NCBI RefSeq assembly: GCF_011397635.1
Contig: NC_064755.1
Coordinates: 38,174,059-38,238,058 of the forward strand
DNA length: 64,000 nt
Source of the DNA: Epinephelus fuscoguttatus
Lineage: Eukaryota > Chordata > Actinopteri > Perciformes > Serranidae
Direction: 5' to 3'
Shown: positions 37,201 to 63,589 of the stretch, one piece after another
How the letters are laid out: each line of letters starts with the position of its first letter
How positions within the stretch are numbered: position 1 is the stretch's first letter
Notes under the pieces: model-generated
Database searches by the model: none
What the model saw: the letters and a program-made list of their open reading frames with translations, nothing else
Told to the model about the DNA's origin: nothing
Made by a program: the position numbers and the translations under genes

Positions 37201-37800
37201 CAATCTTGCTTTCATAGCTGCAAAAAAATGCATTGCTGTAAACTGGAAAACCCCTGCCCCTCCAACTCTATCTCAGTGGAAGGCAGAATTGTCAAGCTAC
37301 ATTCCATTTGATTATTTGTACTATAAAATGAAAGGAAAGCTGGATATATACGACAAAATATGGACTTCTTATGTAGCTTGTATAAACAGTTTTTAAATAT
37401 TTGTTAAAGTGGATTTCTGCCAATACTGGGGTGTGGTTGTTTGTTGGGGTTAGGGCTTGTATGAATTTGGAAATGGATTTGGAAATGGACCAATGCTGTG
37501 CTTTACTGTGGCCGTCCTTGCGGTCGTATATTTATGTATAGACATTTTGAATTATCTTTGATACTTGAATCCCTCCTCCCAATGTTAATCAAAGTCCCTA
37601 ATATTCCGTTACTTAAGAAGTGTTTTATTAATCCCAAAGGGAAATTCAATTGTTGCAACTTTTTATTTGGTATATTTAGAACTATCTGTATCTGTAGCTG
37701 TATCCTTAGCGGTGTCCTGTCTACTGTGTTTGTTTTGTGTTGTCTATCCAATGTTTTGTATTGTGATGTGTCTTACGCACAATTTAAAAATAAAAAAAAC

Positions 37801-39374: not shown

Positions 39375-39581
39375 CAGGTAGGAGCCCACATGGCCCCAAC
39401 CCTGCAGACAGATGACTCTGGATGAATGACCTGCACATAAAACCAGTGAGGGAGTGGCATCAGACTCTACAGACAGACAGACAGACAGTCAGACAGAGAG
39501 GACGGCTGAGACAGAAACAAGTGGATGCAGAGGACAGTCAGCTGCAGCCATGGGGAGCAGAAAAATGTCCTTTTTTGAGAC

Positions 39582-39653
39582 ATGGAGGAGCAAGACGGAG
39601 AGAGGAGAACTTCTGCAGAGAGCCAATCAGCTGAGACTTCTTCCTTCACAGCT
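39582..39653 (+). CDS. Nav-like first coding exon (predicted start)
   Basis: ATG at 39,582 (context GAGACATGG) opens 24 codons, [20 protein letters not shown] onward, ending at donor GCT|GTAAGT in phase 0. This joins the next exon in frame, and an in-frame TGA two codons upstream sets the start. The frame of the nearby ATG at 39,550 would hit a stop after splicing. The product is an acidic/serine-rich extension not found at the usual Nav start, so this exon needs transcript support. Confidence 0.6.
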
Positions 39654-45600: not shown

Positions 45601-48600
45601 ATCTAATTTTTCATTGTTACAAAATAACTGTTTCATGGTTAAGGTCTGGTTAGGTTTATGCACAAGAACTATTTGGTTAAGGTTAGGAAAAGATCATGGC
45701 TTGGGTTAAAATTTTAACTTTCAACATCGTTTCTACTTCCTCAAAACAGGGCGACCGTTGTTGCCATGGCAACAGTAAACAACACGACAACACGGTCTCT
45801 TGCTGCTTTCCCTTGCTGCTTGCTTTTTCAACTTTTTGCATCGCAACATTGAGATTTCGGAACAACGGGACTTCAGAACGATGGGTTTAATATGGTCAGA
45901 CCAATGGGATGTTGAAGCATTGAGATTTCGGAACAATGGGTAATTTTCGAAATAATGGGATGTCGAAATAATGGGATGTCGAAATAATGGGATGTCAGAA
46001 TTATGACATGGCTCCAAAGTGTTTGGGGTGGCACCGAGTCCAGACTGACAGAGAGCGAAACAGAATGTTTGGCTTAAGATAGTCTTACCAGGTAAGATCC
46101 TCCCTGACTGGTTAGTGAAACCATCAGACCCTCATATAGTCTTTTCATTATGTCTCTGTTGTCTGGTTTGGGTATACTGCTCTTTATGTATCACTGCTAC
46201 TGCTGACCGTCACACTGTTTGTTAAACATGTTAGTGACTTTTTCCTTAAAACCAAAACGCTATTCCGTTTGTTAATCTTGGTGACGGTTCTGACCAACTG
46301 TGTGTTCATGACGATGAGTAATCCTCCAGAATGGAGAGAGACTGCGGAGTGAGTAAACACTCACACACAACACACACATTGGGCCTCATGCAGGGAGCGA
46401 TACTACCCATAGATTTCTGGGATTCACCAATGTTTTCTGATTTTTGCTCTTTTCTTCTATAAGAGAACATTTACGAAGGTCCAGAGCACTCTGACCAAGC
46501 TAAGAGGAAAACATCTCATTTTCACAGTCCACAAATTGTTTGTCTAACACAAGGAAACACAAGTTTTAATCTGAGGAATATGAAAAAAGCTTGAATATAA
46601 TCAAATTTAGATTGTTATGTTTTTGTGTAGTTATAATGAATGGATTATTACATTTGTGGGTAGTAGGGAAGTAAATACTGCTATGGTTGGTCCATTGATC
46701 CCAATTACTGTAAATTCAGTTACTGTGCGTCCCTTTGCTGACCAGGGCCAGGGCCCCATTCACAAAGCTTCCTTGTACTGGGAGTTGCTCCGAGTGACAA
46801 AATTCAATGAACATTCTTTGTGTCATTTTCTTAGAATTCCCCCTTCAAGTTAAGACTAGGTCCTCCATAAAGATAAGAGTTATTCCTAATGACTCTTAAG
46901 CCTTAAAAGAGCTCCTAAGGTGAAAAACTTAGCAGGCTCACAAAGGGGTGTGTCTGTGACAACCAATCACATTTGTTAAAAGAATTCATCACACCGAGCA
47001 GCGGGGTCAACCACACCTCCTCACCAAGGTAAAAGTTTCTGTCCATTCCTTGCTCGGTGTTCTCTGAACTTTCCTAAATCACTCCTAAGCTAGGACTCCT
47101 TACTAAAGTTTGTCACTGAGAGTTTTCTCAGAATGTTTCTGAATACGGCCCCTGACGTTTAGTGGAGTAGAAGTAGAAAGTTGCATGAGATAAATATATT
47201 CAAGTACAGTAACAGTACCTTGAATGTGTACTTTAGTGCAATACTTGAGTAAATGTGCTCAGTTATACGTCAGGGGCCATTTTCACAAACACTGTGAGAA
47301 CACGCTCAGAGAGCTTCTAACTTTGCCTAAAAAAGTTTAGTAAGGAGACTTAACTTAGGAGTGATTTAAAAAAGTTCTCAGAGCAACTCTGACCAAGGAA
47401 GGGGCAGAGACTTTTACCTCAGTGAGGAGGTGTGGTTGACCTTGTTACAAGGTGTGATGAATTCTTTTAACAGATGTGATTGGTTGTCACGGAGCCTTTG
47501 TGAGTCTGCAGGTGTGGACACCCAGTGGAAATGAGATAAACTGCTGACTGTGAAAGTGTTGTTATTGTTAATGTGATCACTCTGTTGATAGAAGGTTGAG
47601 ACAGACTCAAGTCATCACTGCTGCACTGTTGTGTTTTTACAGTTTTCCAAAAATCTCAGTGTTGTGATCATTTTGTTTTTGGCCTTACAGCTTTATTGCA
47701 TTGGGCAGGAAATGTGTGCGTATCCCTAATGATTCCTGCACAATCTAATTAGGGACCTCAGCCGAAGGACGAAGTCCCTCTTGTTTTTTGTAGCACGTAA
47801 TGTCCTCACTGTCATCCAGTGTTTGCAGAATATTTTCTCTTCGTGTTTCCACCATTTTCTCATCTAATTAAGAAACTGTTAAAAGTACCCCTCCCTGCTC
47901 CTAACAGTTTTTCACCTTAGGAGTTCTCTTAAGGGCTAAGCTGCTTTGTGAGTAACATTTATCTTTACAAATAGCTAGTCCGAACTTTAAGTAGAAACTT
48001 TTAGAAAACATCATAATAGCAGATTAAAGGTCATTTAAGTTCAATTCAGCTTGAACTGTGACCTCTGTGAAAAGTTTGAGCTCTGACTTGAATTTCTGTC
48101 CTGATGAAGTCTCACAAGACTATAAAATCCTCTTTAAAATTAATTAGCACCCGTGAGCACCCCCTACAGGCTGCAGTATTCATCACAGCCACAATCTGAA
48201 CAAACAACATCCTGGGCCTGGTTGTTCAGAAGTAATCTGACCAGATTTTTGTGATTGGATTGGATCAAATCTTCATAATGGGTTGTTCAGAAGAAGAAAA
48301 AAAAAGATTCTGAATTCAAATAAGATCATATAATCCAGTCTTGGTTTTGATCCGGATCAAACCTTCAGTGTGTGTTGTTCAAAGCATTTTGGTAGAACTG
48401 GGATTTTGATCCAAGAAATCAGGATGATCCTGATCCCAGAATGCTGGATTTAGGGTAGATTTTAGGAACAAAGTGTAATAAAACTTTCAAACTGTTCAAT
48501 TAAATGTAGAATTATTTCAACACATTCTCACTCCGACCTCGTCACTTAACGACATTTTGGTCATAAACATTCCACGTCCACATACGACGTGCAAGGTACC

Positions 48601-51600
48601 CTGGGTGCGTTGGTTGTTTTTCTGGGACACCATTTCAAGTTCTGCCTGTTACATGCATTGTCTTCTTTCAAAATACATTTCTGTTTTTACAGGAAATTTA
48701 CTGTTTACATACAGTCTCGTTCAAAATAAATGCACTATGTTGGTAGCAACTTGGTAATCAATTATTAAAATAATTCCTGAATAAACATAAATTGATATTT
48801 TTGTTGTAACGGTGTTATATTTGAAATGACTCTCACTGATTACTGTTGTTCTGAAGTGTTTCAGTGTTTTTGTTTTTGTTTTCAAACAGACATGTGTTCA
48901 CAGCCATCTACACGCTTGAAGTCCTCATAAAGATGATGTCCAGAGGCCTCTGTTTCGGAAGCTTCACTTTCCTCAGAGACCCCTGGAACTGGCTCGACAT
49001 CCTGGTCGTCCTCACAGGGTAATGTAATATCTCTTACCTCTTCTATGTCTCTTTGTATCTTTTAATTTCTTCTACATCTCTTTGTATCTCTTCATCTCTT
49101 ACACATCTCTTTGTATCTCTTCATCTCTTCTATGTCTCTGTCTCTTTGTCTCTTTTACACCTTTTCGTATCTCTTCATCTCTTTCACGTCTTTTTGTATC
49201 TCTTCTATGTCTCTATCTCTTTGTCTCTTTTACACCTTTTCGAATCTCTTCATCCCTTTCACATCTCTTTTTATCTTTTCATCTCTTTTTACCTCTTTTT
49301 ATCTCTCCATGTCTTCTATGTCTTTGTATCTGTATCTGTTATCTGTTTTATGTCTCTCTGTATCTCTTCACGTCTTTTACATCTCTTTGTATCTCTTCAA
49401 CTTTTTACACCTCTCGGTGTCTTTTCACTTGTTTAATGCCTCTTTGTATCTCTACATCTCTTTCACATCTCTTTGTATCTTCATCTCTTATGCGTCTTTA
49501 TCTCTTCATATCTCTTCATGTTTTCTACGTCTGTGTATGTCTTTACCTCTTTCGTGTCTTTTTGTATTTCTACGTCTCTTTTTATCTCTTTGTATCTCTT
49601 AACGTTTTTACACCTCTTGGTATCTTTCATGTGTTTAACACCTCTTCATATCATTGCATCTCTTTTACATCTCTTTGCATCGCTTCATCTCTGTCAAGTC
49701 TCCTTGTAGATCTTCATCTCTTTCGCGGCTCTTCATATCTCTTCTTGTTTTCTGTCTCTGTGTATGTCTTGACTATAACTTAGTAGAACTATATATAACT
49801 ATATTAGTATAACTATATGATTTTGTATATGATAATATGACTGTATATAACTTTAAGAATAAAACTCATTCTCTGTAACCACTGGTAAAGGGTTATGAGG
49901 GGGAGCTGGAGCCTATCCCAGCTGACACTGGGCAAGAGACGGTGTTCACCCTGGACAGGTCACCAGAGCTGACACATAGAGACAGACAACCATTCACACT
50001 CACATACACACCTATGGCCAATTTAGAGTCACCAATTAACCTGCTTGTCTTTGGACTGTGGGAGGAAGCTGGAGTCTCTGGAGATAACCCACACTTACAC
50101 AGGGAGAACATGTGAACTCTTCACAGAAGGGCTCCCCTTCCCCAGGGTTTGAGGTTGCTGTGAGGTGATAGTGGTAACCACTGCACCACCATGACTATAC
50201 ATAACTATATGAATATAACTTTACGACTATATAGAACTGTATGACTCTATGAAATCATACAACTATTTATAACTGTATGACCATATATAACTGCACAAAT
50301 GTATATGTAGCTCACATATATACATACAAGTCTAGTGCCAGAGAAGTTTGGATGCCATGTAAAGTGTAAATAAAAACAGAATGCAGTGATTTGGAAATCT
50401 TATTTGACCTATATTTAATTGAATATTGATAAGCCACAAAGACATATTTAATGTATATGCGCGCATTCTGAATTTGATGCCTGCATTGAGTTACAAAAAA
50501 GTTGGGACAGAGGCAACAAAAAACTGGGAAAGTTGTGAAATGTTAACAAAACATCTTAAACATTTCACAGGTAACAGAGTCAAGTATCATGACTGGGTAT
50601 GAAAGGGGCATCCTCTAAAGACTCAATTATTCACAAGCAAGGATGGTCATTTACTGAGAAACTGTGTGGGCAAAGAGGCCAACAGATTAAGACCAACATT
50701 TCTCAATGTACAGTTTCAAGGAATTCATGGATCTCACCTTCTGCAATCCGAATATCACCCAATGATTCAGGAAATCTGGAGAAATCTCTGCATGTGAGAG
50801 CCCAGGCTGAAAACCAGCAACCCAGCACAGCCTTCAGGCGGCACTACATTTGAAACCAACATGACTGTATAAAACATATTTCTACATGGGCTTGGAAACA
50901 CTTTGGGAAACCATTGTCGGTGAACACAATTTGTTGCTGCCTCTCCAAATGCAAGTTAAGACTCTAAGACCATGCAGAGTGAGAGCCATATATCAACAAC
51001 ATCCAGAAATTATGCCAACTTCTCTGGACCTGAGCTCACCTGAGACTGACTGACACAAAGTGGAAAAGTGTGCTGTGGTCCGATGAGTCCATATTTATAA
51101 TTGTTTTCAGAAGTCATTGACGGCGTGTCCTGCGGGCTAATGAGGAAAAGGACCATCCAGATTGTTACAAGCACTGAAGTCGAATATCAAGCAAGAATGG
51201 GAAAGAATTTAGATTTTTAAAACTTCAGCCATTAGTGTCCTCAGTTCCCAAACACTTACTGAGTGTTATTAAAAAAACGTGATGTAACACAGTGGTAAAC
51301 ATGACACTGTCCCAACTTAGTTATAACGTGTTGCAGGCTCAAATTCAGAATGAGAACAAAAACATTAGTTTATCAGTTTGAACATTCATGATATTTTCTT
51401 TCTTCTGTATTTAATTGAATATAGGTCACAAAGGATTTGCAAATCATTGAATTCTGTTTTTATTTACGTTTTACACAGTGTCCGACCTTTTATGGAATCA
51501 AGGTTGTATTACTTCAATTTCTTCAGAGCCCCCAAGAAGTGGCTGAACTCCATGATCGCCGGCAAGATGTAATAATTAAGAAATCTGATATATGTGTTCA

Positions 51601-53046
51601 TAACAGAGTTCTTGTTCAGAGTCAGTTATTAACAGTTGTTTTGTCTCCCTTTGGTGGTATGGTGTCTCTCTGTATCTCTTAATCTCCTCTATGTCTCTTT
51701 GTATCTTTTCATCTCTTTTGGGTCTCTTTGTATCTCTTTATCTCTTATGTCTCTCTGTATCTCTTCATCTCTTTTATGTCTCGTTGCATCTCTCCATCTC
51801 TTCTACAACTCTTTGTATCTCTTCATCTCTTCTACGTCTCTTTGTACCTCTTCATCTCTTTTAGATCTCTCTGTATCTCTTAAGTCTCTGTATCTCTTCA
51901 TCCCTTTACATCTTCTTCATCTCTTTTACATCTCTTTGTATCTCTTGATCTCTTATGTCTCTCTGTATCTCTTCATCTCTTTTTTGTCTTTTTGCATCTC
52001 TTCTACGTCTCTTTGTATCTCTTCATCTCTTCTACGTCTCTTTGTACCTTTTCATCTCTTTTAGATCTCTCTGTATCTCTTAAGTCTCTGTATCTCTTCA
52101 TCCCTTTACATCTTCTTCATCTCTTTTATGTCTCTTTGTGTCTCTTCATCTCTCTTCATATCTTATGTCTCTCTGTATCTCTTCATCTCTTTTATGTCTC
52201 CTTGTACCTCTTCATCTCTTTTACCTCTCTTCACATCTCTTCATTTCTTCTACATACTTTGTATCTCTTCATATCTCATGTCTCTCTGTTTGTCTTCATC
52301 TCATATGTCTCTCTGTATCTCTTCATCTCTTTTACATATCTTTGTATCTCTTCATATCTTATGTCTCTCTGGATCTCTTTGTCTCTTTTACATCTTCTTC
52401 ATCTTTTTTACGTCTCTTTGTATCTCTTCATGTCTTATGTCTCTCTGTATCTTTTCATCTCTTTTAGATCTCTCTGTATCTCTTAAGTCTCTCTGTATCC
52501 CGTCATCCCTTTTACGTCTTTGTATCTCTTCATATCTTATGTCTCTCTGTATGTCTTCATCTCTTATGTCTCTCTGTATCTCTTCATCTCTTTTACATCT
52601 TCTTCATCTCTTTTACAGCTATTTGTATCTCTTCATCTCTTATGTCTCTCTGTATTTCTTCATCTCTTTTATGTCTCTTTGTATCTCTTCATCTCTTTTA
52701 CCTCTCTTTGCATCTCTTCATTTCTTCTACATCTCTTTGTACCTTTTCATCTCTTTTACATCTCTCTGTATCTCTTAAGTCTCTGTATCTCTTCATCCCT
52801 TTTACATCTCTTTGTATCTCTTCGTGTCTTATGTCTCTCTGTATCTTATCATCGCTTTTATGTCTCTCTGTATCTCTCTGCATCTCTTCATCTCTTTCAC
52901 ATCTGATGATGATGATGATGATGACAGTGGTGGTGATGCTGATGTGTTTCTGTGTTTCAGATATTTGACATGGATTGTATCTATCAAGACACTTTCTGTG
53001 CTGAGGACAGTTACTCGAGTACTGAAGATCATCACAGTCATCCCAG

Positions 53047-53106
<60 letters not shown>

Positions 53107-53483
53107 CTCTATCTCAAAAAGAAACTCAAAGAGTTATGAGTTTGTTGTTTTGGAATTTGATTTCTGATGCAGTCGGTTTCTTAAACTCCGCCCCCTCTCA
53201 GGTCTGAAGAAGACTGTCGGAGATGTCGTCCAGTCGTTGAGGAAACTGGCTGATGTCATCACTCTAACGGTGTTCTGGCTCTGCCTCTTGGCTCTGATCA
53301 CTCTGCAGCTCTTCATGGGATCTCTGAAGCACAAATGTATTATTTCATCGTGGCTGGCGCCAGCAGGAAGCACTGAGTTTGATTTCTTTGAGCATGTTCT
53401 CAACGCTGGTATGATGATGTAGATGTTGAGCGTTTGCCAGATTGCTACATTCAGCTGTTGCCCCTCAGCCAGAGGTTGAAGCC

Positions 53484-53520
<37 letters not shown>

Positions 53521-54546
53521 GTCTGCCTGTAGAGAACCAGTACCACCTGCCTGGTCAGTTAGATTCTCTGGTGTGTGGAAACTCCTCTGATTCAGGGTAC
53601 GTTCACAGCTCTTCAATACAGACACTTCATCATCATCATCATCACCATCACAATGATAATAGTAAATGATGATGATGATGATGATGATGATGTCCTTAGG
53701 GCCTGTCCCGAGGGTTACACCTGTCTGAGGGCGGGGAGAAACCCAAACTACGGCTACACCGGCTACGATTCGTTTGGTTGGTCTCTGCTGAACATGGTCC
53801 GACTGATGACCCAGGACTTCTGGGATAACCTGATGCAGCTGGTCAGTAACAGACTGGTCCCAGTAGACGGACAGGCTGGTCCCAGTAACAGACAGACTGG
53901 TCCCAGTACACAGACTGGTCCCAGTGCACAGACTGGTTTAACTGAGTTCACTGATTCCAACTCTGTCTCTTTCACCTGTCTCTCTTTCTTACCTTTCTCT
54001 CATTCTCTCCTATCTGTCTCTCTCTTTTGTCTGTATCTCACCTGTCGGTATCTCTCACCTGTCTGTCTCTCACCTGTCTGTCTCTCTCGCCTGTCTCTTC
54101 TCACCTGTCTGTGTCTCTCACCTGTGTCTCTTTCTCACCCTATCTGTCTCTTTCTCACCTGTCTGTCTCTCTGCAGACGTTCCGATCATCAGGTTCCCAC
54201 TTCCTGGTCTTCTTCATGGGTATTGTCTTCCCCAGCTGCTTCTGTGTCCTCAGCCTCATCGTGGTGGTGGTTGCCATGGCCGCCAGTGAGCGGGAGGACG
54301 CCAGTGTCGTTGAAGCCAGAGAGAGAGAAGAGTTGTTTACTCAGATCGTGGAGGTGCTGAAGAGGAGGGAGGAAGAGGAGGTGAGATTGTTTCACTTTTC
54401 AGGCATCGTTCGTGTAACTGGTGGATTTAAATGAAGCATTTAATTATTGTTAATTGTATTGTTGTTACAGAAGGCAGCCTGCAGGGCGGCGCTCTCAGAG
54501 ACATCAGAGGGTGAAAACAAGAGCCACAAACACACTGATGTAAAAG

Positions 54547-54596
<50 letters not shown>

Positions 54597-57500
54597 GCCC
54601 ATCTAACCCTGAACCTGATTCAGAAGTCTGTAGACAGCAGATATGATTATGAAAGTGTGATTTCAGTGTGTGAAGCTTGTCTCGCAGTCAGCGGTGTGTT
54701 TCAGGGTTTGATGAGGACCACGTGTCGTTTCCTCTGTGCTGTTTTGTTTTTGCAGACTTCTGCCTGAAGTTGGACTGTTGTGTCTGTTGCCCGGGGCTCC
54801 AACAGTGGCTTCACACCTTCATCACAAACCCATTCTTTGACCTTGGGATTGTCATCTGCCTCATCATCAACACCATCTTTATGGCTATGGAGCATTATCC
54901 AATGACGATGGAGTTTGAAGAGCACCTTGCTATAGCACATCTGGTTAGTGTTAAAGAAAAGTTTTGAACAAAACAAGACAGACAGACAGACAGACAGACA
55001 GTGACTTTTACTAACACATGAAGCAGACCTGAGCGTCAAGCTGATTGGTTGAGCCAACACATTTTATTAAAGTGTTTCTATTAAAGTTTTCTTTGTTTTC
55101 ATTTCAAGTTACGTTGAAGATACACTTCAACAACGTACTGTCACAGTAATCTTTAGGCAGAGCAGGAAACTATGAGATAACTATACAAATACATGTAACT
55201 ATAAAACTATATGTAACTATAAATTATTTGTAGCTTTACAAATATATTTAACTATATGACTATTTTGTAACTATAAGACTATATATAGCTATAAAACTAC
55301 ATGTAACTCTATGACCATTTGTGACTATATGTACACTATATGTACTTATACAATTATACCTTTACAACTATATGTAACTATAAAATGATATGTACAAACA
55401 AATATTTTATACTATAGGATAATATCTAACTATACAACTAACTATAAAACTATATGTAACTATAAAATGATATGTACAAATATTTTATACTATAGGATAA
55501 TATCTAACTATACAACTGTATGCAACTATATCAACTTTAAGACTATATGTAACTATCCGATGACGCGTAACTATATAATTATAGATAATTTTACACCCAC
55601 CTGCTTACTAGCTTAGGAGAGCTTACCAGAAAATATCAGACTATAAAAAGCTATAAAACAACAACAGCTGAGTACGCTCATAGAGAGTTTACAGATGACC
55701 CCTGTACTCTGAACTTTGACCTCTAAACTCACCTCTCACCTCTGCCAGGTCTTCACAGGCATCTTCACAGCTGAGATGATCATCAAGCTTGTTGCCATGG
55801 GCCCAGGTTAGACTTCCTGTTTGTTACCATGGAGCATGTAATATGAGGAACAGTTAAACGACAGCGACAGCGTTTGAGGAGCCAGACTTGACTTGACATT
55901 ACATAATGGTGACGGACGTCTTTTGTCTAAATATGCATGTTTGTTTTCCTTGTAATTTCTCTCCAAGCAGATCATGGCTCTGTGGAGCAGCTGCATCTCA
56001 GCCTCTGCGAGACAGAACCATGATCAACATCATTAACTTCGATAGAACTGAGGCCAAAGTCTGGCTCCTCGAACGCTGTCAATATCGTCATGACCGTTCC
56101 GTCTTTTATAATTTCCTTGCTTGTTACAAGCTCTGTGTTCATGACTGACAGCAGTGCAGCTGTTGTGTTGCCATGGTTACAGGTGCCGTGGAACATCTAT
56201 GACAGCATTATCGTCACATTGAGTGTGTTGGAGCTCGGATTAGCTGACGTTTCTGGCCTAGAACTGGTAAGTGTGACATCATCACTTATTGCAAAACAAC
56301 CAGTCCAGTCACTGTCTACCTGTCTTTTTTTATTTGTCTCCGTATTTCCTGTCTACATGTCTCCTTACTTTGTGTCTACCTGTCTCCTCATCTACATCCT
56401 TACTTCCTGTCTACCTGTCTCCTTACTTTCTGACTACTTGTCTTTTTTATCTGTCTCTTACTTCCTGTCCACCTGTCTCCTCACCTGCCTCCTTACTTCC
56501 TGTCTACCTGTCTCCTCACCTGCCTCCTTACTTTCTGTATACCTGCCTCCTTACTTCCTGTCCACCTGTCTCCTCACCTGCCTCCTTACTTTCTGTCTAC
56601 CTGTCTCCTCACCTGCCTCCTTACTTTCTATCTACCTGTCTCCTCACCTGCCTCCTTACTTTCTGTCTACCTGTCTCCTCACCTGTCTCCTTACTGTATG
56701 TCCACCTGTCTCTTTACTTTCTGTATACCTGCCTCCTTACTTCCTGTCCACCTGTCTCCTCACCTCCCTCCTTACTTCCTGTCTACCTGTCTCCTCATCT
56801 TCCTCTTTACTTCCTGTCCACCTGTCTCCTCACCTGCCTCCTTACTTCCTGTCTACCTGTCTCCTCATCTTCCTCTTTACTTCCTGTCCACCTGTCTCCT
56901 CACCTGCCTCCTTACTTCCTGTCTACCTGTCTCCTCACCTGCCTCCTTACTTCCTGTCTTCCTGTCTCCTCACCTGCCTCCTTACTTTCTGTCTACCTGT
57001 CTCCTCACCTGCCTCCTTACTTCCTGTCTACCTGTCTCCTCACCTGCCTCCTTACTTTCTGTATACCTGTCTCCTTATCTTCCTCTTTACTTCCTGTCTA
57101 CCTGTCTCCTCACCTGCCTCCTTACTTTCTGTCCAACTGTCTCCTCACCTCCCTCCTTACTTCCTGCCCACCTGTCTCCTCACCTGCCTCCTTAATTTCT
57201 ATCTTCCTGTCTCCTCACCTGCCTCCTTACTTCCTGTCTACCTGTCTCCTCACCTGCCTCCTTACTTCCTGTCTACCTGTCTCCTCACCTGCCTCCTTAC
57301 TTCCTGTCTACCTGTCTCCTCACCTGCCTCCTTACTTCCTGTCTACCTGTCTCCTCACCTGCCTCCTTAATTTCTATCTTCCTGTCCCCTCACCTGCCTC
57401 CTTACTTCCTGTCTACCTGTCTCCTCACCTGCCTCCTTACTTTCTGTCCAACTGTCTCCTCACCTCCCTCCTTACTTCCTGCCCACCTGTCTCCTCACCT

Positions 57501-60500
57501 GCCTCCTTACTTCCTGTCCACCTGTCTCCTCACCTTCCTCCTTACTTCCTGTCTACCTGTCTCCTCACCTGCCTCCTTCCTTCCTGTCCACCTGTCTCCT
57601 CACCTGACTCCTTACTTCCTTTCTACCTGTCTCCTCACCTGCCTCCTTACTTACTTTATCTGTACCTATACTTTCTGTCTACCTGTCTCCTTACCTCTTT
57701 GTCCGTCTGCTGTGCAGTTGCGAGTATTCAGGCTGTCCAGGTGGTGGCCATCCTTCCACCTGTTGTTAAAGATCATCTGGATGTCACTGAGCGCTCTGAG
57801 GAACCTGACTCTTCTTCTGCTCATCATGGTCTTTTTCTTCACCGTGGTTGGCATGCAACTGTTTGGGAGTGACTACAAAGACTATGTCTGTCGCATCTCA
57901 GCGGACTGTGAGCTTCCTCGCTGGCACATGAACGATTTCTTCCACTCCTTCCTTGCTATCATGAGGGTCCTGTATGGAGAGTGGATTGAGCTCATGTGGG
58001 ATTGCATGGAGGTCTCAGGTCCGGCCATGTGTCTGATCTTCTTCATGATGGTCATGGTCATCGGAAACCTCTTGGTGAGTCTCAGCAGGTTGACACTTTC
58101 TGAGCTTAACCTGGTTCCTGTACGTCATTAACCCTCCAGTCCAGCAGGTCAGCTATAGCCACAAACAGATCCAGGTCTAGGGTCAAACGAGTTCTGGGGT
58201 TCTGCCTTGAATTGTGGCTGACTGGAAACAATAAAGCACTTAATCACGTATGAAATCTTTACACCAACATATACTGTTTCAGGTTTTGAATCTGTTCCTG
58301 ATTTTAAGTCCTGAATCTATTCTAGGCCTTAAAGGATAACTTCGGTATTTTTCAACCTGGGCCCTATTTCCCCATGTGTATGTGTGCGTATGATTCATAG
58401 GTACAACTCGTTCTAAAATTGGTTCAGTACTGAGGGACGCGGATGCAGCCGGCAGCCACGAAACGAGCTAAAACGGTAACGGGGGCAAATGCGTCCCGTA
58501 TAAGTTTGCGCATTAAAAGTGCTTTTTTTCGCCACTGACCAGTTCAGATCGCCAGTGCTATCTCTGTAAATAGCATACTAAGCGTTTCCCTTACCCTTCA
58601 CTTCCTGTGGGCTGTGACGTCATCTTGCGAGAGCTTTGCTTGTTGCTGGAAGAAAACAGAGGAGCCATGCTGAGCGCCGCTCAGAGTGGCGCTGGTTGTC
58701 CTGGAGTACAGAGTTTTACTGCATTGACTGTAAACAATGGTTCGTGTTTGTGCTTAACCGAATTGCAAGAACAGAATGTCGCGCAACACCCCGTACAGCT
58801 TCCATAGGCTGCCTTTGTTGGACAGCGAGATGCTGAAGTTGTGGCTAGTTGTGCTACAAATGGATGCTAACACTCCTGTCCAGACACTGCGCCTTGCAGA
58901 CCATCAGGTCTGCAGTGCTCACTTCTCCCAAGATGACTACTGCCAGCCAAAGAAGAGAAGACATCCAATCCCGAAACACCTGTTCCTCAAGAAAACGGCT
59001 GTCCCACGAGTAGAGAGAGCTACAGACACAGTGGAGGTAATGTTATAAAAACAATGTTTGAAACGCTGAGTATGCTATTTACAGAGATAGCACTGGCGAT
59101 CTGAACCGGTCAGTGGCAAAAAAAAGCACTTTTAATGCGCAAACTTATGCGGGACGCATTTGCCCCCGTTACCGTTTTAGCTCGTTTCGGCTGCATCCGC
59201 GTCCCTCAGTACTGAACCAATTTTAAAATGAGTTGTACCTATGAGTCATACGCACACATACACACGGGGAAATAGGGCCCAGGTTGAAAAATACCGAAGT
59301 TATCCTTTAATGCATGACCTGTAGTTGCTCCTAAATCTGTTCCTGAATGTGTCCCTTGCCCTGTTGAAGGTTCTGAATCTGTTCCTGAGTCTGTGCCCAG
59401 CATTGTTGCACATCCTGAATCTTTTCCTAGCTTTGTTCCTGGCCTTGTCTCGGGTCTTAAATCTATTCCTGGTCTTGTTGCAGACCCTAAATCAGAGAAG
59501 TGCTGACAAAATTAAATACTGAGGTAGTGGGTGTTAGCAACCTCTTCCAGGTAAAGGAAAGGAAAGGCCTGCCGATGGTTTTTTTGTGCTGTACATTACC
59601 CTCGGCAGAGCCTTTTTGTTTGGTGCTGTACAGCCTGCAGAGCCCTGGCATCATTGCAGGTCTTGACTTTGTTACTGGCCTTGTTTTAGGTCCCTGATTC
59701 TATCTCTGCCCTTGTTGTGGGATGGATCTGAATCCATTCCTGGCTTTGTTGCAGGTCCTAAACATGATCCTGGGCTTGCTGCAGATCCCAAATATGTTTG
59801 TTGGCCTTGCTGTAGATTCTGAATCAGTTTGCTTGCCTTGTTTCAGGACCTGATTCTATTCCTGATGTGGTTTAAGGCCCTGAATGTGTTTCTCTGTCTT
59901 GTTTCAGGTCCTGAATCTGTTCCTGACCTTGCTGATGAGCTCCTTCAGCAGTGAGAGTCTGGCAGCTCCAGCAGTAAAAGAATGCAACCACCTGCAGCCT
60001 GCTATAAATCAGATCAAGAGGGCTGTGTGGACTCTGCTGGGAAAGAAGACCCATATGAACCCAGACCACAAAGGTAGGACCAGATCTGGAACTAGACCAA
60101 GGACTTCATTATTTACGTATTTTTTGTAGTCTAGGTGTTTTTAGAGTTCAGGGTGTTTACAGTTTCTGGCTTTTCTGGTGTGTTTTTTTGCTGCTGTTTA
60201 CTGTGTCTTTAATTTTTTAGATTAAAACTGATAATAATGGACGCAGATCTTAGACTTAATGGCTGGTGATTTACTGTAATTTATTGTTAGCAATCGACAG
60301 CAAGGACGACAAGAAGAAGGATTACATGGCCTTGACTGTTGTGACCTCGGAACAGCCGATGTCAGAGGTCAGGGCCCTCAGCAGTGATCACGACAACCCG
60401 ACCAGCAAAGACCATAACACCGACTCCCAGTGCGTCCTGGAAGCCATAAAGACGTCTGAAGATGAAGATGAAAAAGAGAAAAAAGTAAGTCCTATTCTAC

Positions 60501-63500
60501 TCTATTGTAGTATGTGTACTACAGATACTACTTTTCCCTTTTAATACTTTACATTTCTCATTTTTGCCCAACATAATTTTTGACAATGTACACAGCCATA
60601 TTTATTTTGTGATAGTGCAGACAGTTCATAGTCTGAGCAGTAACTAACAGAATAATCAAGAAAACAAAAGGGGGATAGACTAATAATTAACAGTCTTAAC
60701 AACAACAATTTAACAGTAGATACATGGATTTGTGGTGTGTTTGTACATTCACTGGCCACTTTATTAGGTACACCTTGCTAGTACCAGGTTGGACCCATTT
60801 TGCCTTCAGACCTGCCTTAATTCTTGGTGGCATAGATTCAACAAGGTGCTGGAAAGATTCCTCAGAGATTTTGGTCCATATGGACATGATGACAACACAC
60901 AGTTGCTGCAGATTTGTCAGCTGCATGATCCATGATGAGAATCTCCCGTTCCACCACATCCCAAAGGTGCTCTATTGAACTGAGATCTGGTGACTGTGGA
61001 GGCCATTGGAGTACAGTGAAATCATTGTCATGTTCAAGAAACCAGTTTGAGATGATGTGAGCTTTGTGACATGGTGCGTTATCCTGCTGGAAGTAGCCAT
61101 CAGAAGATGGGTACACTGTGGTCATAAAGGGATGGACACGGTCAGCAACAATACTCAGGTAGGCTGTGGTGTTTAAACCATGCTCAGTTGGTACTAAGAA
61201 AATCTTCCCCACACCATTACACCACCAGCAGCAGCCTGAACCGTTGATACAAGGCAGGATGGATCCATGCTTTCATGTTGTTTACACCAAATTCTGACCC
61301 TACCATCTGAATGTGGCAGCAGAAATCCAGACTCATCAGACCAGGCTAACGTTTTTCCAATCTTCTATTGTCCAGTTTTGGTGAGCCTGTGTGAACTGTA
61401 GCCTCAGTTTCCTGTTGTTAGCTGACAGGAGTAGCACCTGGTGTGGTCTTCTGCTGCTGTAGCCCATCTGCTTCAAGGTTGGACAAGGTGTTGTTGGTTC
61501 AGAGATGGTCTTCTGCAGACCTTGGTTGGAACCAGTGGTTATTTGAGTTCCTGTTGCCTTTCTATCATCTTGAACCAGTCTGGCCATTCTCCTCTGACCT
61601 CTGGCATCAACAAGGTATTTTTACCCAGAGAACTGCTGCTCACTGGATATTTTGTCTTTTTGGGACCATCCTCTGTAAACCCTACAGATGATTGTGTGTG
61701 AAAATCGATCAGCAGTTTCTGTTTAAAGTCCCTTAAATCACCTTTCTTCCACATTCTGATGCTTAGTTTGAACTTCAGCAGGTCGACTTGATCATGTCTA
61801 CATGCCTACATGCATCAAGTTGCTGCCATGTGATTGGATAATTAGTTATTTGCGTTAACAAGCAGTTGACTAGGTGTACCTAAAAAGTGGTTGGTGGGTG
61901 TATAACCACGTTATCTTCAAAAACACACATATATATACAAATAAGTTCCCTCTGTGGTACAGACCAGTGGTTCAGACCTCAGCATGTATGACACGGACTG
62001 ATGATGATGATAATAATGATGAAAAACTTTGTATGTATAAAATCTGTTGATTGTGTCTGTTTAGAAACATCCTGAAGTCCAGCAGCGCAAAGACGATGAA
62101 GATGATAAAGGAAACCCACCTGACGACTGCTGTAGTGACAGTATGAGTCTTTCTGAATAAGTGATGAAGAACAGGAGCCGATCAGTGATCAATAACAGCC
62201 CTGATAAATCTCTGTGCGTGTGTGTGTGTGTGTGTGTATATTTCAGAGTGTTACCGTTGCTGTCCATGCCTGGACATAGACACATCCCAGGGTGGAGGAA
62301 GGGTCTGGTCCAACTTCAGGAGAGCCTGTTGCTCCATCATTCAACACAAATACTTCGAGTACTTTGTCATGTTCATCCTCCTGCTGAGCAGTGCAGCTAT
62401 GGTAAACACAAACATACTAACACTGAGCCTCATTCACCAGCTGTTCTCAAGAAAAACAATTTCTACTTAGAACGCACTTGTGAAGCACCAACTAGTTCAC
62501 CTGGTAGAGCGGGTGCTCCATGTACAAAGTAGGGCTGGGCAATATATAACAAACAAGACTTTCACCCAAGAGAGCAGTGATCACGTCCCGTAAGATTCTT
62601 AAGCCAAACCCTGTTTTCGTTGCCTAAACCCAACCCAAAAAACAATGCATGCAACAGGCAGAACTTGACATGGTGTCCCAGGACGTCAACAGCTAACGCA
62701 CCCACAGTACCTTGCATGTTGGATGTGGACGTGGACAGTCCATGACCAAACGTCGATTTGTGACAAGGTCGGAGTGCGAGTGTGTTGCACTCACAAGTTC
62801 CCCAGCAACACTAAGAGACACAGAGCTGCTCCTCTGAGTGAAGTCTGGTGTATGAAGTTCAGACACAGTCACACTGGTGTGACATCACAGGCTGCTGCAG
62901 GAGACAGGAGCAGCTGTTGAATAGATTTTTTGTTTGTTTGTTTAATTCAACTTGTAATAAACAGTTAACAACACTTCAGTTGTACAAATCAACCTGTAGA
63001 GTAACCTCACACACCTGGTCAGGTGCTAACACGGCTGTTGGTGTGAACAGATGTTTGAGGACATTTACCTGCATCAGCGTCCGGTCTTAAAGGAGATCCT
63101 GTTGAGAGCAGACCAGGTGTTTACCCTGCTGTTCCTGATAGAGATGCTTCTCAAGATCATCGCCTTCGGACTCAAGAAATACTTCACCGACGCCTGGTGC
63201 TGGCTCGACTTCCTCATCTTAGACGTAAGAACCAAACAAACAACACGATCAATAAAAAGCTGATTATTGCTAATGTATAAATAACTGTCTTTTAATAGCT
63301 GCTGGTTTAACAGGTTTGACCTCAAGGTAACTTAACGTGATGGTAACCATAGCAACAGAACCAGTGCTTCTATTGGGAAATAGACAGGTACCAGTGTTGT
63401 TTGTGCCAGTTAGTACTGGGTAAACTGGTCCCAGTCTTGGTGTTAACGCTGTGTTGTGTCTTCCAGGTATTTCTGGTTTCTCTGGCAGCCGACACATTTG

Positions 63501-63589
63501 GATTCTCTGAACTGGGAGCCATCCAGTCTCTGAGGACCCTGAGGGCTCTGGGGCCCCTGAGGATCCTGTCTCGCGCCAAGGGCCTGAGG
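39582..63589 (+). CDS. Divergent voltage-gated sodium channel alpha subunit, 22 exons, 3' end outside window
   Basis: Pore-forming Nav alpha subunits have four six-helix domains in the plasma membrane and carry voltage-gated Na+ current. Joined exons give 1,033 open residues: N-terminus ([20 protein letters not shown]), domain I, a short I-II linker, domain II, a short II-III linker and domain III S1-S4. Domain I has the selectivity Asp (MTQDFWDNL, with Phe at the tetrodotoxin-related site); domain II has the selectivity Glu ([10 protein letters not shown]). S2 and S3 countercharges are kept (for example WNWLDI, NIYDSI, CWLDFL). Oddities are S4 segments with lost charges in all three visible domains, no visible ankyrin-G motif, a Ser for the usual Asn in domain I S6, and an extended N-terminus. 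All splice phases match and no stop interrupts, so it is not an obvious pseudogene. Orthology (scn1-, scn4-, scn5- or scn8-like) cannot be assigned by eye; domains III end, IV and the inactivation gate are outside the window. Confidence 0.93.
39654..40859 (+). other. Nav-like intron with dispersed fish repeat
   Basis: A 1.2-kb intron. Bases about 39,890-40,695 look like a single dispersed element: GGGGCGCTGGAG near the start, GTGGCGCTATGACTATCACG, AAAATGGCCGACTTCCTGTT, and GGGCCTTCGCCCGCCAATGG near the end. No ORF of interest. Confidence 0.5.
40860..41033 (+). CDS. Nav-like exon: N-terminal cytoplasmic region
   Basis: Acceptor TTCCCACAG, donor AAG|GTTCAA (weak). 58 codons. It encodes [19 protein letters not shown], then the conserved Nav N-terminus [20 protein letters not shown] and a basic stretch RPKKKNEK. 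In canonical channels translation begins just before LLPP; here the frame is open to the acceptor without a Met, so an upstream start is required. Confidence 0.92.
41965..42330. repeat. TA-rich palindrome with 40-bp arms
   Basis: ACTTCCAGGTAGAAAACCAG, continuing CACAGTTTAGCTATAT, at 41,965 onward is repeated as its reverse complement ending at about 42,330. A partial third copy (GCTAAACTGTGCTGGTTG) lies at about 42,206. Between them is (TA)n with regularly spaced GTATACATATATA and TAGATATAGATA words, themselves palindromic. Confidence 0.85.
42575..42865. mobile_element. Short foldback element, 40-bp arms
   Basis: GTGAAAAAAATATTTTTCCA, then GCGGATATCTTAGTTACAAC, at 42,575-42,614 are found inverted with few changes at 42,825-42,865. 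The 210-bp interior has no coding features. It is a likely MITE. Confidence 0.75.
43225..43801. mobile_element. MITE with GGCCCTGACACACCAA-type ends
   Basis: The left end GGCCCTGACACACCAAGCC is inverted at the right as GGTTTGGTGTGTATGGGCC, 577 bp in all. It is non-coding. The superfamily is uncertain. Confidence 0.7.
43887..44024 (+). CDS. Nav-like exon: N-terminal region
   Basis: Acceptor GTTGACAG, donor AAG|GTCTCT, 46 codons. It encodes [20 protein letters not shown] and [13 protein letters not shown], very close to the canonical Nav pre-domain-I sequence. Confidence 0.95.
44025..44399 (+). other. Nav-like intron without recognised features
   Basis: A 375-bp intron between GTCTCT and CTCTGCAG; no repeat or gene recognised. 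Confidence 0.6.
44400..44518 (+). CDS. Nav-like exon: up to start of domain I S1
   Basis: Acceptor CTCTGCAG. It encodes [39 protein letters not shown]. It ends at CACTT|ATATCC, an AT-AC 5' splice site, in phase 2. Confidence 0.95.
44519..46258 (+). other. U12-type AT-AC intron
   Basis: The intron starts ATATCCTTTAT, a match to the U12-type 5' splice-site consensus, has a branch-site-like TTCCTTAAA at 46,242-46,250, and ends ...CCAAAAC, giving AT-AC termini. Joining CACTT to GCTATTCCG restores the S1 frame ([16 protein letters not shown]). Vertebrate Nav genes have an AT-AC U12 intron at this position. Its body is filled by nested inverted-repeat elements. Confidence 0.93.
44582..46075. mobile_element. 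Nested triple inverted-repeat element in the U12 intron
   Basis: The outer arms (AACATTCTGTTTTCGCTCTC and CACCCCAAACACTTT at 44,587-44,643) recur inverted at about 46,014-46,070. A second inverted pair lies at about 44,785-44,870 versus 45,205-45,295 (GGACATGCTCCTGGAACAAC / GATCCAGGGGCATGTCC). A third lies at about 45,470-45,555 versus 45,915-46,005, made of ATTCCGACATCCCATT-type units. At least two elements appear inserted into a third. No coding capacity. Confidence 0.75.
46259..46348 (+). CDS. Nav-like exon: domain I S1
   Basis: It follows the AC acceptor; donor GA|GTGAGT, 90 bp. It encodes the S1 helix [20 protein letters not shown] and [10 protein letters not shown]. In canonical channels this reads [21 protein letters not shown] is kept. 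Confidence 0.95.
46349..48889 (+). other. 2.5-kb Nav-like intron with head-to-head repeat copies
   Basis: It holds two inverted copies of a GGCCCC-ended element (46,751-47,156 and 47,269-47,963) and a decayed repeat at about 48,536-48,690 that recurs in inverse orientation at 62,585-62,790. Other sequence is unassigned. Confidence 0.55.
46751..47963. repeat. Head-to-head pair of dispersed elements
   Basis: Copy 1 (46,751-47,156) contains AACCAATCACATTTGTTAAA, GAATTCATCACACC and CACACCTCCTCACCAAGGTA. Copy 2 (47,269-47,963) contains the reverse complements (TTTTAACAGATGTGATTGGT, GAGGAGGTGTGG), with an internal insertion of a few hundred bases. Each copy has AG-rich ends of the GGGGCC type. Confidence 0.75.
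48890..49018 (+). CDS. Nav-like exon: domain I S2-S3
   Basis: Acceptor TTCAAACAG, donor GG|GTAATG, 129 bp. It encodes [20 protein letters not shown] and [17 protein letters not shown]. The S2 Glu and S3 Asp that pair with S4 charges are intact. Confidence 0.96.
49022..49760. repeat. Pyrimidine-rich minisatellite, left block
   Basis: From the donor onward runs an imperfect ~30-bp repeat of TCTCTTTGTATCTCTTCATC type. Open frames through it are low-complexity Leu/Phe/Ser strings and are rejected as genes. The same repeat resumes at 51,655. Confidence 0.9.
49761..50325. other. Nav-like intron segment with ACTATA-type repeats
   Basis: Degenerate words such as AACTATATGA recur at 49,775-49,860 and 50,195-50,300, similar to the array at 55,170-55,560. 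Between them, 49,880-50,190 carries a repeat-like piece (GGACTGTGGGAGGAAGCTGG). Confidence 0.55.
50326..51507. mobile_element. Decayed DNA transposon, same family as 20,211-22,052
   Basis: The inverted ends are ACAAGTCTAGTGCCAGAGAA and CCTTTTATGGAATCAAGGTTGT; AT flanks both. The interior matches the 20-kb element in reverse orientation (for example ATTCTGAATTTGATGCCTGC, and the CTGAGTGTTATT segment that is interrupted in the other copy). A short plus-strand frame (50,599-50,853) with [13 protein letters not shown] resembles a worn transposase. Confidence 0.75.
51655..52905. repeat. Pyrimidine-rich minisatellite, right block
   Basis: About 1.25 kb of TCTCTGTATCTCTTCATCTC-type units, with higher-order duplication: a block at about 51,790-51,925 recurs at about 51,985-52,120 almost verbatim. 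A (GAT)n tract follows, and the block ends 55 bp before the S4 exon acceptor. Confidence 0.9.
52961..53046 (+). CDS. Nav-like exon: domain I S4 (altered)
   Basis: Acceptor GTGTTTCAG, donor G|GTGTGT, 86 bp. The homologous Nav exon is normally 92 bp; the two-codon loss keeps frame. It encodes [20 protein letters not shown] and LKIITVIP. Compared with the canonical S4 spacing (R-x-x-R-x-x-R-x-x-K), one arginine position is missing and the spacing becomes R-x-x-x-R-x-x-K. Confidence 0.93.
53202..53408 (+). CDS. Nav-like exon: domain I S4-S5 linker, S5, turret start
   Basis: Acceptor CTCTCAG, donor G|GTATGA. It encodes [40 protein letters not shown] and SLKHKC. Confidence 0.95.
53533..53596 (+). 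CDS. Nav-like exon: domain I extracellular loop
   Basis: Acceptor GCCTGTAG, donor GG|GTACGT, 64 bp. It encodes [20 protein letters not shown], with a conserved turret Cys and a sequon (NSS). Confidence 0.93.
53700..53841 (+). CDS. Nav-like exon: domain I pore loop
   Basis: Acceptor GTCCTTAG (after a (GAT)n tract), donor CTG|GTCAGT. It encodes [20 protein letters not shown] and [17 protein letters not shown]. The selectivity-filter Asp is present, followed by Phe at the site that in other channels decides tetrodotoxin sensitivity. Confidence 0.96.
53842..54176 (+). repeat. Nav-like intron made of two minisatellites
   Basis: Bases 53,855-53,935 are short units of ACAGACTGGTCCCAGTA type. Bases 53,960-54,170 are TCTCACCTGTCTGTCTC-type units running into the acceptor. 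Confidence 0.85.
54177..54380 (+). CDS. Nav-like exon: domain I S6 and linker start
   Basis: Acceptor TCTCTGCAG, donor GAG|GTGAGA, 68 codons. It encodes [21 protein letters not shown]6 [12 protein letters not shown] and a charged helix [20 protein letters not shown]. Canonical S6 has INLILAVVAMA; the usual Asn is Ser here. Confidence 0.94.
54471..54546 (+). CDS. Nav-like exon: domain I-II linker
   Basis: Acceptor TTGTTACAG, donor G|GTACAC, followed at once by a (CA)n run. It encodes [20 protein letters not shown] and HTDVK. With it the linker is only about 85 residues, against roughly 120 to 300 in other vertebrate Navs. Confidence 0.85.
54756..54943 (+). CDS. Nav-like exon: domain II S1
   Basis: Acceptor TTTTTGCAG, donor CTG|GTTAGT. 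It encodes [40 protein letters not shown] and [20 protein letters not shown] is a Nav domain II signature. Confidence 0.96.
54944..55748 (+). repeat. Nav-like intron with degenerate ACTATA repeat
   Basis: About 55,170-55,560 consists of 15-20-bp units such as TATGTAACTATAAAACTA. The rest is AT-rich with a short (GACA)n run at about 54,975-55,002. Confidence 0.8.
55749..55806 (+). CDS. Nav-like exon: domain II S2
   Basis: Acceptor CTCTGCCAG, donor G|GTTAGA, 58 bp. It encodes [19 protein letters not shown], the S2 helix with its conserved Glu. Confidence 0.94.
55807..56159 (+). other. Nav-like intron without recognised features
   Basis: A 353-bp intron; no repeat or gene recognised. Its acceptor choice (56,158-56,159 rather than 56,180-56,181) matters for the next exon. 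Confidence 0.55.
56160..56266 (+). CDS. Nav-like exon: domain II S3 and start of S4
   Basis: I chose acceptor CAGTGCAG (56,159) because only it fits the phase left by the S2 exon; the nearer TTACAG would shift the frame. It encodes [19 protein letters not shown] and [17 protein letters not shown], then GTAAGT. S3 Asp is intact. Canonical channels continue GLSVLRSFRL before this splice site; here GLEL is spliced directly, removing about six residues including two S4 arginines. Confidence 0.85.
56290..57705. repeat. 35-bp minisatellite, about 40 copies
   Basis: The units follow ACCTGTCTCCTCACCTGCCT plus CCTTACTTCCTGTCT; the spacing is exactly 35 bp (for example CACCTGCCTC at 57,181, 57,216, 57,251). 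It fills the intron between domain II S3 and S4 exons and supplies the pyrimidine tract of the next acceptor. A 527-codon open frame through it is a repeat artefact. Confidence 0.95.
57718..58074 (+). CDS. Nav-like exon: domain II S4, S5, pore, S6
   Basis: Acceptor GCTGTGCAG, donor TTG|GTGAGT, 119 codons. It encodes [21 protein letters not shown]5 ([18 protein letters not shown]), [20 protein letters not shown], the filter [13 protein letters not shown] with selectivity Glu, and S6 [10 protein letters not shown] with its Asn. Tyr replaces the usual Cys before GEW. Confidence 0.96.
58329..59310. mobile_element. Kolobok-like element with THAP remnant and ~245-bp inverted repeats
   Basis: The arms 58,329-58,575 and 59,068-59,310 are near-perfect inverted repeats, starting TTAAAGGATAACTTCGGTAT and ending ATACCGAAGTTATCCTTTAA. 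TTAA at both edges is the target site of Kolobok and piggyBac elements. The interior encodes a THAP zinc-finger, a domain found in Kolobok transposases, so I favour Kolobok over piggyBac. Confidence 0.82.
58738..59037 (+). pseudogene. THAP-domain first exon of a transposase, one in-frame stop
   Basis: From ATG 58,738 the frame reads MVRVCA, a TAA stop, then [20 protein letters not shown], ..[19 protein letters not shown] and [11 protein letters not shown]. The C2CH pattern (C..C near the start, C-x2-H in CSAH) and the Pro near the end mark a THAP DNA-binding domain. It ends at GAG|GTAATG, a good splice donor, but no catalytic part follows. Same strand as the channel gene. Confidence 0.85.
59908..60073 (+). 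CDS. Nav-like exon: domain II S6 end and II-III linker start
   Basis: Acceptor TTGTTTCAG, donor G|GTAGGA. It encodes [20 protein letters not shown] and [18 protein letters not shown]. The start matches canonical VLNLFLALLLSSFS. Confidence 0.95.
60291..60484 (+). CDS. Nav-like exon: II-III linker
   Basis: Acceptor TTGTTAG, donor AAA|GTAAGT. It encodes an acidic, hydrophilic segment ([29 protein letters not shown]). It shows no match to the ankyrin-G-binding pattern (P-I-A-x-G-E-S-D) expected in this loop. Confidence 0.88.
60744..61903 (-). mobile_element. Tc1/mariner-like transposon, decayed
   Basis: The ends CACTGGCCACTTTATTAGGT and AGGTGTACCTAAAAAGTGGT are inverted repeats with TA nearby. 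The minus-strand frame 60,862-61,212 encodes a Tc1-type catalytic region with [17 protein letters not shown] (second Asp of the DDE set) and [16 protein letters not shown] (third acidic residue). Further N-terminal pieces lie at 61,336-61,587. Frames are broken. Confidence 0.92.
62065..62140 (+). CDS. Nav-like exon: II-III linker
   Basis: Acceptor CTGTTTAG, donor A|GTATGA, 76 bp. It encodes [20 protein letters not shown] and DCCSD. The phase joins both neighbours; the sequence itself is poorly conserved, so support rests on phase and composition. Confidence 0.75.
62247..62401 (+). CDS. Nav-like exon: linker end and domain III S1
   Basis: Acceptor TATTTCAG (after a (GT)n run), donor ATG|GTAAAC. 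It encodes [33 protein letters not shown] and [13 protein letters not shown], matching the canonical WWNLRRTCF..VEHNWFE..IVFMILLSSGAL. Confidence 0.94.
62402..63050 (+). other. Nav-like intron with SINE head and dispersed repeat
   Basis: Bases about 62,493-62,530 (AGTTCACCTGGTAGAGCGGG, TGCTCCATGTACAAAG) look like the truncated tRNA-derived head of a SINE. Bases about 62,585-62,790 match, in opposite orientation, the repeat at 48,536-48,690. Confidence 0.6.
63051..63224 (+). CDS. Nav-like exon: domain III S1 end to S3
   Basis: Acceptor GTGAACAG, donor GAC|GTAAGA, 58 codons. It encodes [21 protein letters not shown]2 [18 protein letters not shown], and S3 [15 protein letters not shown] with its conserved Asp. 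Confidence 0.96.
63467..63589 (+). CDS. Nav-like exon: domain III S3-S4 (altered S4)
   Basis: Acceptor CTTCCAG, donor AGG|GTGAGA, 41 codons. It encodes [20 protein letters not shown] and [19 protein letters not shown]. Canonical S4 is [13 protein letters not shown]; here the first Lys is Gln and the fourth charge position (ALR) is Gly. This is the last exon in the window. Confidence 0.95.

Follow-up and report, generated by a model that had tools for sequence, protein, structure and literature searches.

The window, a stretch of 64,000 nucleotides from Epinephelus fuscoguttatus (C4:38174059-38238058), contains the 5′ part of a gene for a voltage-gated sodium channel (Nav) alpha subunit whose voltage sensors are depleted of charge. 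By its position in the trees, the gene is a fast-evolving paralogue of scn4ab (Nav1.4b) with a single origin at the base of the spiny-rayed (percomorph) fishes or close to it, and its product has probably ceased to be an ordinary voltage-gated sodium channel. With a probability of roughly 0.6, it is a tandem paralogue derived from scn4ab with depleted sensors, whose product most likely serves either as a Nax-like cation pathway insensitive to voltage or as a closed channel that is controlled in some other way. As judged from its sequence, the gene is retained and Nax-like in trend, but it is not Nax.

The gene lies on the plus strand, starts at position 39550 of the window and runs past the window end by about 24.5 kb; the span of 52961 to 63589 given in an earlier note on this DNA is therefore too short. 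In the 80 kb of flanking sequence that was read, this copy, called copy A, continues with exons e22 to e30 up to C4:38262586, and a second Nav copy, copy B, is found in head-to-tail orientation. Exons e1 to e21 of copy A join into 1,009 stop-free residues, given one non-ancestral acceptor in domain II (DII), and their introns are GT-AG throughout, except for an AT-AC intron after e3. The closest listed match is the "sodium channel protein type 4 subunit alpha B-like" of Epinephelus lanceolatus (P0001), with 90% identity, and over 1,644 sites copy A and P0001 are 94% identical. P0001 carries PF00520 in four stretches, as well as PF24609 and PF06512 above the cut-off. The coding parts of copy A that were read in the window are the following:

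39550-39653, plus strand: e0, first coding exon, N-terminal extension; located in copy B by tblastn with P0001, the same exon being read in copy A
40860-41033, plus strand: e1, N-terminus, canonical start Met changed to Ile; acceptor 1 nt shorter than in copy B, out of frame with e0
43887-44024, plus strand: e2, N-terminal cytoplasmic region
44400-44518, plus strand: e3, N-terminal region up to S1; followed by the AT-AC (U12-type) intron 44519-46258, its AT-AC ends read in the sequence
46259-46348, plus strand: e4, DI S1
48890-49018, plus strand: e5, DI S2-S3, with countercharges Glu and Asp
51479-51568, plus strand: candidate extra in-frame exon of 30 residues in the DI S3-S4 loop; borders by eye, present only in the P0001 model among the segments compared
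52961-53046, plus strand: e6, DI S4, 86 nt, R-xxx-R-xx-K, R2 deleted
53202-53408, plus strand: e7, DI S4-S5 linker and S5
53533-53841, plus strand: e8 (53533-53596) and e9 (53700-53841), DI pore loop with the filter Asp
54177-54546, plus strand: e10 (54177-54380), DI S6, and e11 (54471-54546), short I-II linker
54756-54943, plus strand: e12, DII S1
55749-55806, plus strand: e13, DII S2; lacks 14 nt near its end relative to copy B
56183-56266, plus strand: e14, DII S3 and start of S4; an 18-nt deletion takes out the R1-R2 region
57718-58074, plus strand: e15, inner half of DII S4, S5, pore with the filter Glu, S6
59908-60073, plus strand: e16, end of DII S6 and start of the II-III linker
60291-62140, plus strand: e17 (60291-60484) and e18 (62065-62140), II-III linker
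62247-62401, plus strand: e19, DIII S1
63051-63224, plus strand: e20, DIII S2-S3, with countercharges
63467-63589, plus strand: e21, DIII S4, K1 changed to Q and R4 to G

The intron after e15 holds a THAP-domain open frame (58758-59048, plus strand; PF05485, E 1.3e-12), flanked by apparent inverted repeats seen by eye near 58330-58530 and 59100-59310, which looks like the remnant of a P-element-type transposon. A Tc1/mariner-like DDE_3 transposase fragment (60862-61272, minus strand; PF13358, E 3.3e-10) lies in the intron after e17, and the acceptor of the candidate exon at 51479-51568 falls in an apparent transposon end, with inverted ends placed by eye near 50340 and 51490. Open stretches at about 34500-37400 on the plus strand resemble, by eye, a LINE reverse transcriptase. 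Upstream of the channel gene and on the same strand, laminin-EGF exons extend, by eye, from about 2700 to 26400; both laminin stretches that were scanned (15010-15354 and 19754-20170) contain PF00053, and the chain that they encode is probably a beta chain.

Re-reading of the DI, DII and DIII exons shows that the three S4 anomalies described in the earlier note are real for copy A, and the depletion extends to all four domains rather than to three, since the DIV S4, which lies beyond the window and reads SFATVLRLGRVGRMLPLIRFSRG, has lost R1 and R5 too. The DI S4 is two residues shorter than that of canonical scn4ab, in frame; because R1, R3 and K4 can still be aligned, a loss of R2 and its neighbour would be the simplest reading. 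In DII, the SVLRSFR segment is absent and six residues of the outer half of S4 are missing, while in DIII K1 is replaced by Q and R4 by G. The acidic countercharges of S2 and S3, which had been called intact, are present in DI to DIII of the window, and the canonical acid is kept in 41 to 49 of the 49 listed proteins of the clade described below; the filter Asp of DI (e9) and the filter Glu of DII (e15) are likewise in place in copy A.

The DII deletion is common to copy A and E. lanceolatus P0001, and copy B keeps R1 and R2 of this S4. At the start of the DII S4 (56266 in copy A, C4:38295012 in copy B), GLGLLRPLRL is kept in copy B. The two copies are closer to each other overall, yet the deletion links copy A with E. 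lanceolatus, a distribution for which gene conversion or a duplication of greater age would account.

Missing exons or consensus errors might in principle mimic such a depletion. Over 19 kb, runs of three or more are shortened by 1 nt nine times in copy A and three times in copy B, and the 1-nt difference at e1 is possibly a consensus error. The S4 changes, however, are common to both copies, DII excepted, and to the models of dozens of other species. Extra or alternative S4 exons that would restore the canonical charges, a possibility raised earlier, were sought with canonical S4 peptides in the window and the 80 kb beyond it (144 kb in total), and no canonical S4 exon was found there. An assembly or annotation artefact is already contradicted for the S4 changes and is highly improbable as an account of the gene.

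The depletion is shared by a large group of fish proteins. Three protein searches, with the best 120 matches listed for each, gave 168 different proteins, among which 49 (37 of the first 155, plus 12 of the 13 new ones) were assigned to the clade by their lack of the canonical DI S4 motif. Many of them are named "Nav1.4 alpha B-like", and they are referred to here as the -like proteins. Their listed hosts are groupers, rockfish, sablefish, eelpouts, lumpfish, stickleback, perches, basses, porgies, butterflyfish, wrasses, frogfish, archerfish, jacks, flatfish, climbing perch, snakehead, spiny eel, damselfish, cichlids, surfperch, rainbowfish, killifish and four-eyed fish, among others. A normal scn4ab protein is also listed for at least 12 of the clade species, such as Enoplosus (P0002 and P0121) and Epinephelus lanceolatus (P0001 and P0134). 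In 24 of the 46 members in which a pattern located its position, another residue stands in place of the canonical start Met. An N-terminal extension was considered as a novelty of the clade and rejected, since some canonical scn4ab models have one, including Osmerus P0155 and Salminus P0153.

In all 49 listed members the DI R2 position is empty, 48 of them reaching the site and one being a model without the DI S4, and every member that reaches it shows the two-residue change of register. Basic residues were counted position by position in 37 -like proteins and in 34 canonical scn4ab proteins, the latter being basic in 33 or 34 of the 34 at every position; the counts come from related sequences and are hence not independent. 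In the 37 -like proteins, the numbers with a basic residue are:

DI S4: R1 16, R2 0, R3 32, K4 37
DII S4: R1 15, R2 2, R3 36, R4 37, R5 37
DIII S4: K1 0, R2 29, R3 37, R4 12, R5 37, R6 37
DIV S4: R1 1, R2 37, R3 28, R4 33, R5 3, R6 16, K7 30

The same pattern is obtained with the 49 listed members. In total, the four S4 stretches hold 13 to 18 Lys or Arg residues per -like protein versus 21 to 25 in canonical scn4ab, with means of 2.4, 3.5, 4.3 and 5.8 left in DI to DIV of the -like proteins, and a regular Arg or Lys at every third residue in all S4s is not found in the clade. The depletion is not due to chance: none of the 37 clade members first aligned has a residue in the DI R2 column, in which all 34 canonical scn4ab proteins have R. 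The charge loss is strongly position-dependent, a pattern that plain decay does not predict.

The Lys and Arg residues that are left make some voltage dependence possible, and the gene might encode a Nav of weak voltage dependence, its activation shifted and shallow, in which the remaining inner charges move. In line with this, all 37 proteins have a basic residue at DII R4 and R5, DIII R3, R5 and R6 and DIV R2, and 36 of 37 have one at DII R3; copy B has a full-looking DII S4 with R1 and R2 retained, and the filter is still DEKA in four listed species. Such a channel is nevertheless rather unlikely, given that the outermost charges are depleted in each domain and that the register of the DI S4 is shifted by two residues.

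The origin of the clade from scn4ab is indicated by three trees. In the first (72 rows, 1,622 columns), the 37 -like proteins and the window gene form one clade with an SH-aLRT value of 100, nested in scn4ab. Its branch point falls within the spiny-rayed fishes, later than those of Centroberyx and Genypterus; the nesting is more certain than this exact position, the trees being quick ones with SH-aLRT values only and with long branches. The second tree, with 46 -like rows, again gives a single origin (one change). The third uses 189 DIV columns and adds one exon from each of eight other grouper Nav loci; the clade still falls inside scn4ab, where support is weak, and the -like and scn4ab rows together with the grouper C20 locus are split, with a value of 99, from six other grouper Nav loci. 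The C20 locus is presumably scn4aa. At least eight other Nav loci are found in the grouper genome; in these eight the DIV S4 and the inner DII S4 are canonical, as is the outer DII S4 in the three loci in which it was read. The proposal of an independently evolved Nav paralogue agrees with the single origin of the clade inside scn4ab. The earlier plan to place the gene among fish and tetrapod Nav paralogues and SCN7A was realised for the fish paralogues, in trees without an SCN7A row. Orthology with Nax, considered as a candidate, is rejected on the nesting in scn4ab in these trees, and in a PDB search human Nax ranks below Nav1.4.

From the common node, the mean path is 0.72 for the 37 -like proteins versus 0.12 for 24 percomorph scn4ab proteins, a ratio of 5.9. 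The acceleration affects every region of the protein, pore and S6 included, and does not single out the sensors, which also fits a general relaxation rather than a new channel role.

The selectivity filter has changed as well. Among the 49 listed -like proteins the filter lysine is kept in four (Toxotes, Mastacembelus, Anabas and Channa, all DEKA), replaced in 42 and gapped in three, whereas the canonical proteins have DEKA in 81 of 84 and gaps in the other three. The grouper filter is D-E-S-A instead of DEKA, both in P0001 and, by reading of the protein, in copy B, and that of Paralichthys (P0074) is D-E-N-A, the sole DENA among the 36 first classified. Across the clade, K is replaced by A, S, H, N, T and others, E by Q in 9 of 49 and A by S, T or G, and the DI filter Asp is kept in 46 of 49, with two gapped. 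By parsimony on the tree, the filter lysine was lost in at least three changes. The order of loss can be read because the DI S4 loss is common to the clade and four species retain the filter lysine: the distribution indicates that the shared DI sensor loss came first and that the loss of the filter lysine was later and repeated. The inactivation particle is IFI in grouper, with its Phe in 46 and its Met in 37 of the 49 listed members, and the isoleucine of the IQ motif is kept in 46 of 49.

A non-conducting role stays conceivable because the pore and S6 are accelerated along with the sensors. The protein could be a regulatory relic, acting in the membrane as a sink for beta subunits or calmodulin or as a trafficking partner while pore and sensors drift. 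The many directions in which the filter residues change are expected if conduction no longer matters, and the least diverged parts within the clade include the IQ motif, the DI pore loop, the DIV S4-S5/S5 stretch and the C-terminal region. Free drift would not, however, leave the inner S4 charges, the S2/S3 acids, the Phe of the particle and the DI filter Asp nearly fixed, and this explanation is considered unlikely, though not negligible.

The two grouper copies differ in the state of their reading frames. As modelled, copy B has an uninterrupted frame of 4,995 nt (1,664 residues). In copy A, the acceptor of e1 is 1 nt short and the e0 start codon leads to a stop, and e13 lacks 14 nt that are present in copy B; the statement that all frames are intact does not hold for this copy. 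A base change not found in copy B creates an AG at 56158-56159 of copy A, 23 nt upstream of e14, which would start this exon at 56160 and restore the frame, a suggestive arrangement. Between the copies, dN is 0.0134 and dS 0.0286, with a ratio of 0.47 (Fisher p 0.0018); the flanking introns differ by 1.37% (74 of 5,465 sites), equal to dN. The ratio is no longer read as purifying selection, because the intron control equals the dN rate; for this pair, the test gives 0.47 against synonymous sites and about 1 against flanking introns. The amino-acid changes fall 27 on copy A and 17 on copy B, with three not assignable. Copy A may be losing its frame, copy B being the sound copy. The intron between e25 and e26 measures 10.5 kb in copy A (C4:38242126-38252652) and 2.1 kb in copy B, a gap that reflects a large insertion in copy A or a loss in copy B.

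These differences raise the question of whether the S4 changes are mutations in a dying gene. The frame-changing differences of 1 and 14 nt, a dN of 1.34% that matches the intron divergence and the excess of amino-acid changes on copy A all agree with decay. Set against them are the long open frames (1,390 to 1,714 residues) of species in which the -like protein shares 57-67% identity with P0001, the 21 exons with usable splice sites in copy A, the intact copy B, the strict position dependence of the charge loss and two contigs of transcript size. The clade members are mostly gene models, in which lesions could be hidden. The two contigs, of 5,678 and 5,356 nt, encode P0005 and P0007 in frames of 1,669 and 1,638 aa, and they appear to be spliced transcripts because they are too short for an intron-bearing gene; their source code, lgn, would denote assembled sequencing reads. 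In the available part of an RNA-seq study of seabream white muscle, a "Sodium channel type 4 subunit alpha B-like isoform X2" is reported at 0.06 and 0.40 of control on exercise (PMC7750471), and this may be a putative match to the -like gene. Decay may be true of copy A, but it hardly applies to the gene as a whole, for which it is quite improbable.

Under the preferred reading, that of a retained channel with depleted sensors, the inner S4 charges would keep each sensor-like domain folded, but too few charges would be left to cross the field, and depolarisation would no longer open the channel normally. With the filter lysine gone, any pore that opened would discriminate poorly between cations. 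The product would then conduct cations independently of voltage, or would form a closed channel governed by another control, and muscle is a plausible site for it. For the sensors, weak or absent voltage dependence is the likeliest interpretation. Sodium sensing, the other role suggested in the earlier note, gains no support from the analysis. A more specific proposal, put forward tentatively and given somewhat less than even odds, is that the spiny-rayed fishes derived their own Nax counterpart from scn4ab, a cation channel that is widely kept, expressed and insensitive to voltage, its sensors having been disarmed before the filter lysine was repeatedly lost.

The available parts of two publications count eight Nav alpha genes in teleosts, two of them being scn4aa and scn4ab (PMC12604801; PMC8692874), and a legend in one of them that covers stickleback (S9) likewise speaks of eight teleost genes (PMC12604801). 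The clade would add a further gene to these eight, one that has shed the two traits by which Nav channels are defined. Gasterosteus and Oreochromis are among the genera from which members are named, which means that such species possess the extra gene; its hosts include damselfishes, cichlids, killifishes, flatfishes, snakeheads, perches and groupers. No description of a sensor-depleted scn4ab-like gene was found in the open-access literature, most subscription journals lying outside the scope of the search, and the recognition of the clade appears to be new, although the sequences are already public under automatic names. Zebrafish swim normally without Nav1.4, according to the accessible portions of two reports (PMC12021243; PMC12604801), and this dispensability could have left room for duplicates of Nav1.4 to drift. 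Intermediate states survive in living fish, and, if the reading is true, the clade is a replicated natural experiment in the conversion of a Nav channel into a non-voltage-gated channel.

Among known systems, the parent lineage is scn4ab itself, which encodes Nav1.4b, a Nav alpha subunit of teleost skeletal muscle, and with which the -like genes share the four-domain layout, the short I-II linker and the IQ motif. They differ from it in evolving about six times faster, in the loss of the outer S4 charges and DI R2 and, mostly, of the filter lysine, and, in grouper, in location, the -like locus being on C4 and scn4ab on C19. NALCN is also a four-domain cation channel with fewer S4 charges. It is not a near relative by sequence, as the best 60 of the 118 PDB matches are Nav, Cav and bacterial Nav-type chains and chimeras. 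The aphid DENS channel, as presented in the available part of its description, is a Nav derivative with an altered filter (DENS), but it is heterodimeric, belongs to insects and represents an unrelated event (PMC4332693). In apteronotid electric fishes, the accessible text of a paper that often mentions scn4a genes describes a fast-evolving Nav gene with a persistent sodium current, so that its product is still a sodium channel (PMC5870949). The model for the preferred reading is Nax (SCN7A) of tetrapods, which, in the part of the source available, has reduced S4 charges and a DENA filter and carries a reliable current only once its S6 gate has been mutated, and then as a voltage-insensitive, non-selective leak (PMC8931054). 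The -like proteins share the reduced S4 charge and the loss of the filter lysine, in Paralichthys P0074 down to DENA, while the grouper has D-E-S-A and the Phe of the particle is present in 46 of 49. The parallels to Nax in S4 charges and filter lysine are thus stronger than first claimed, but the clade is not an orthologue of Nax: it arose independently, as a derivative of scn4ab.
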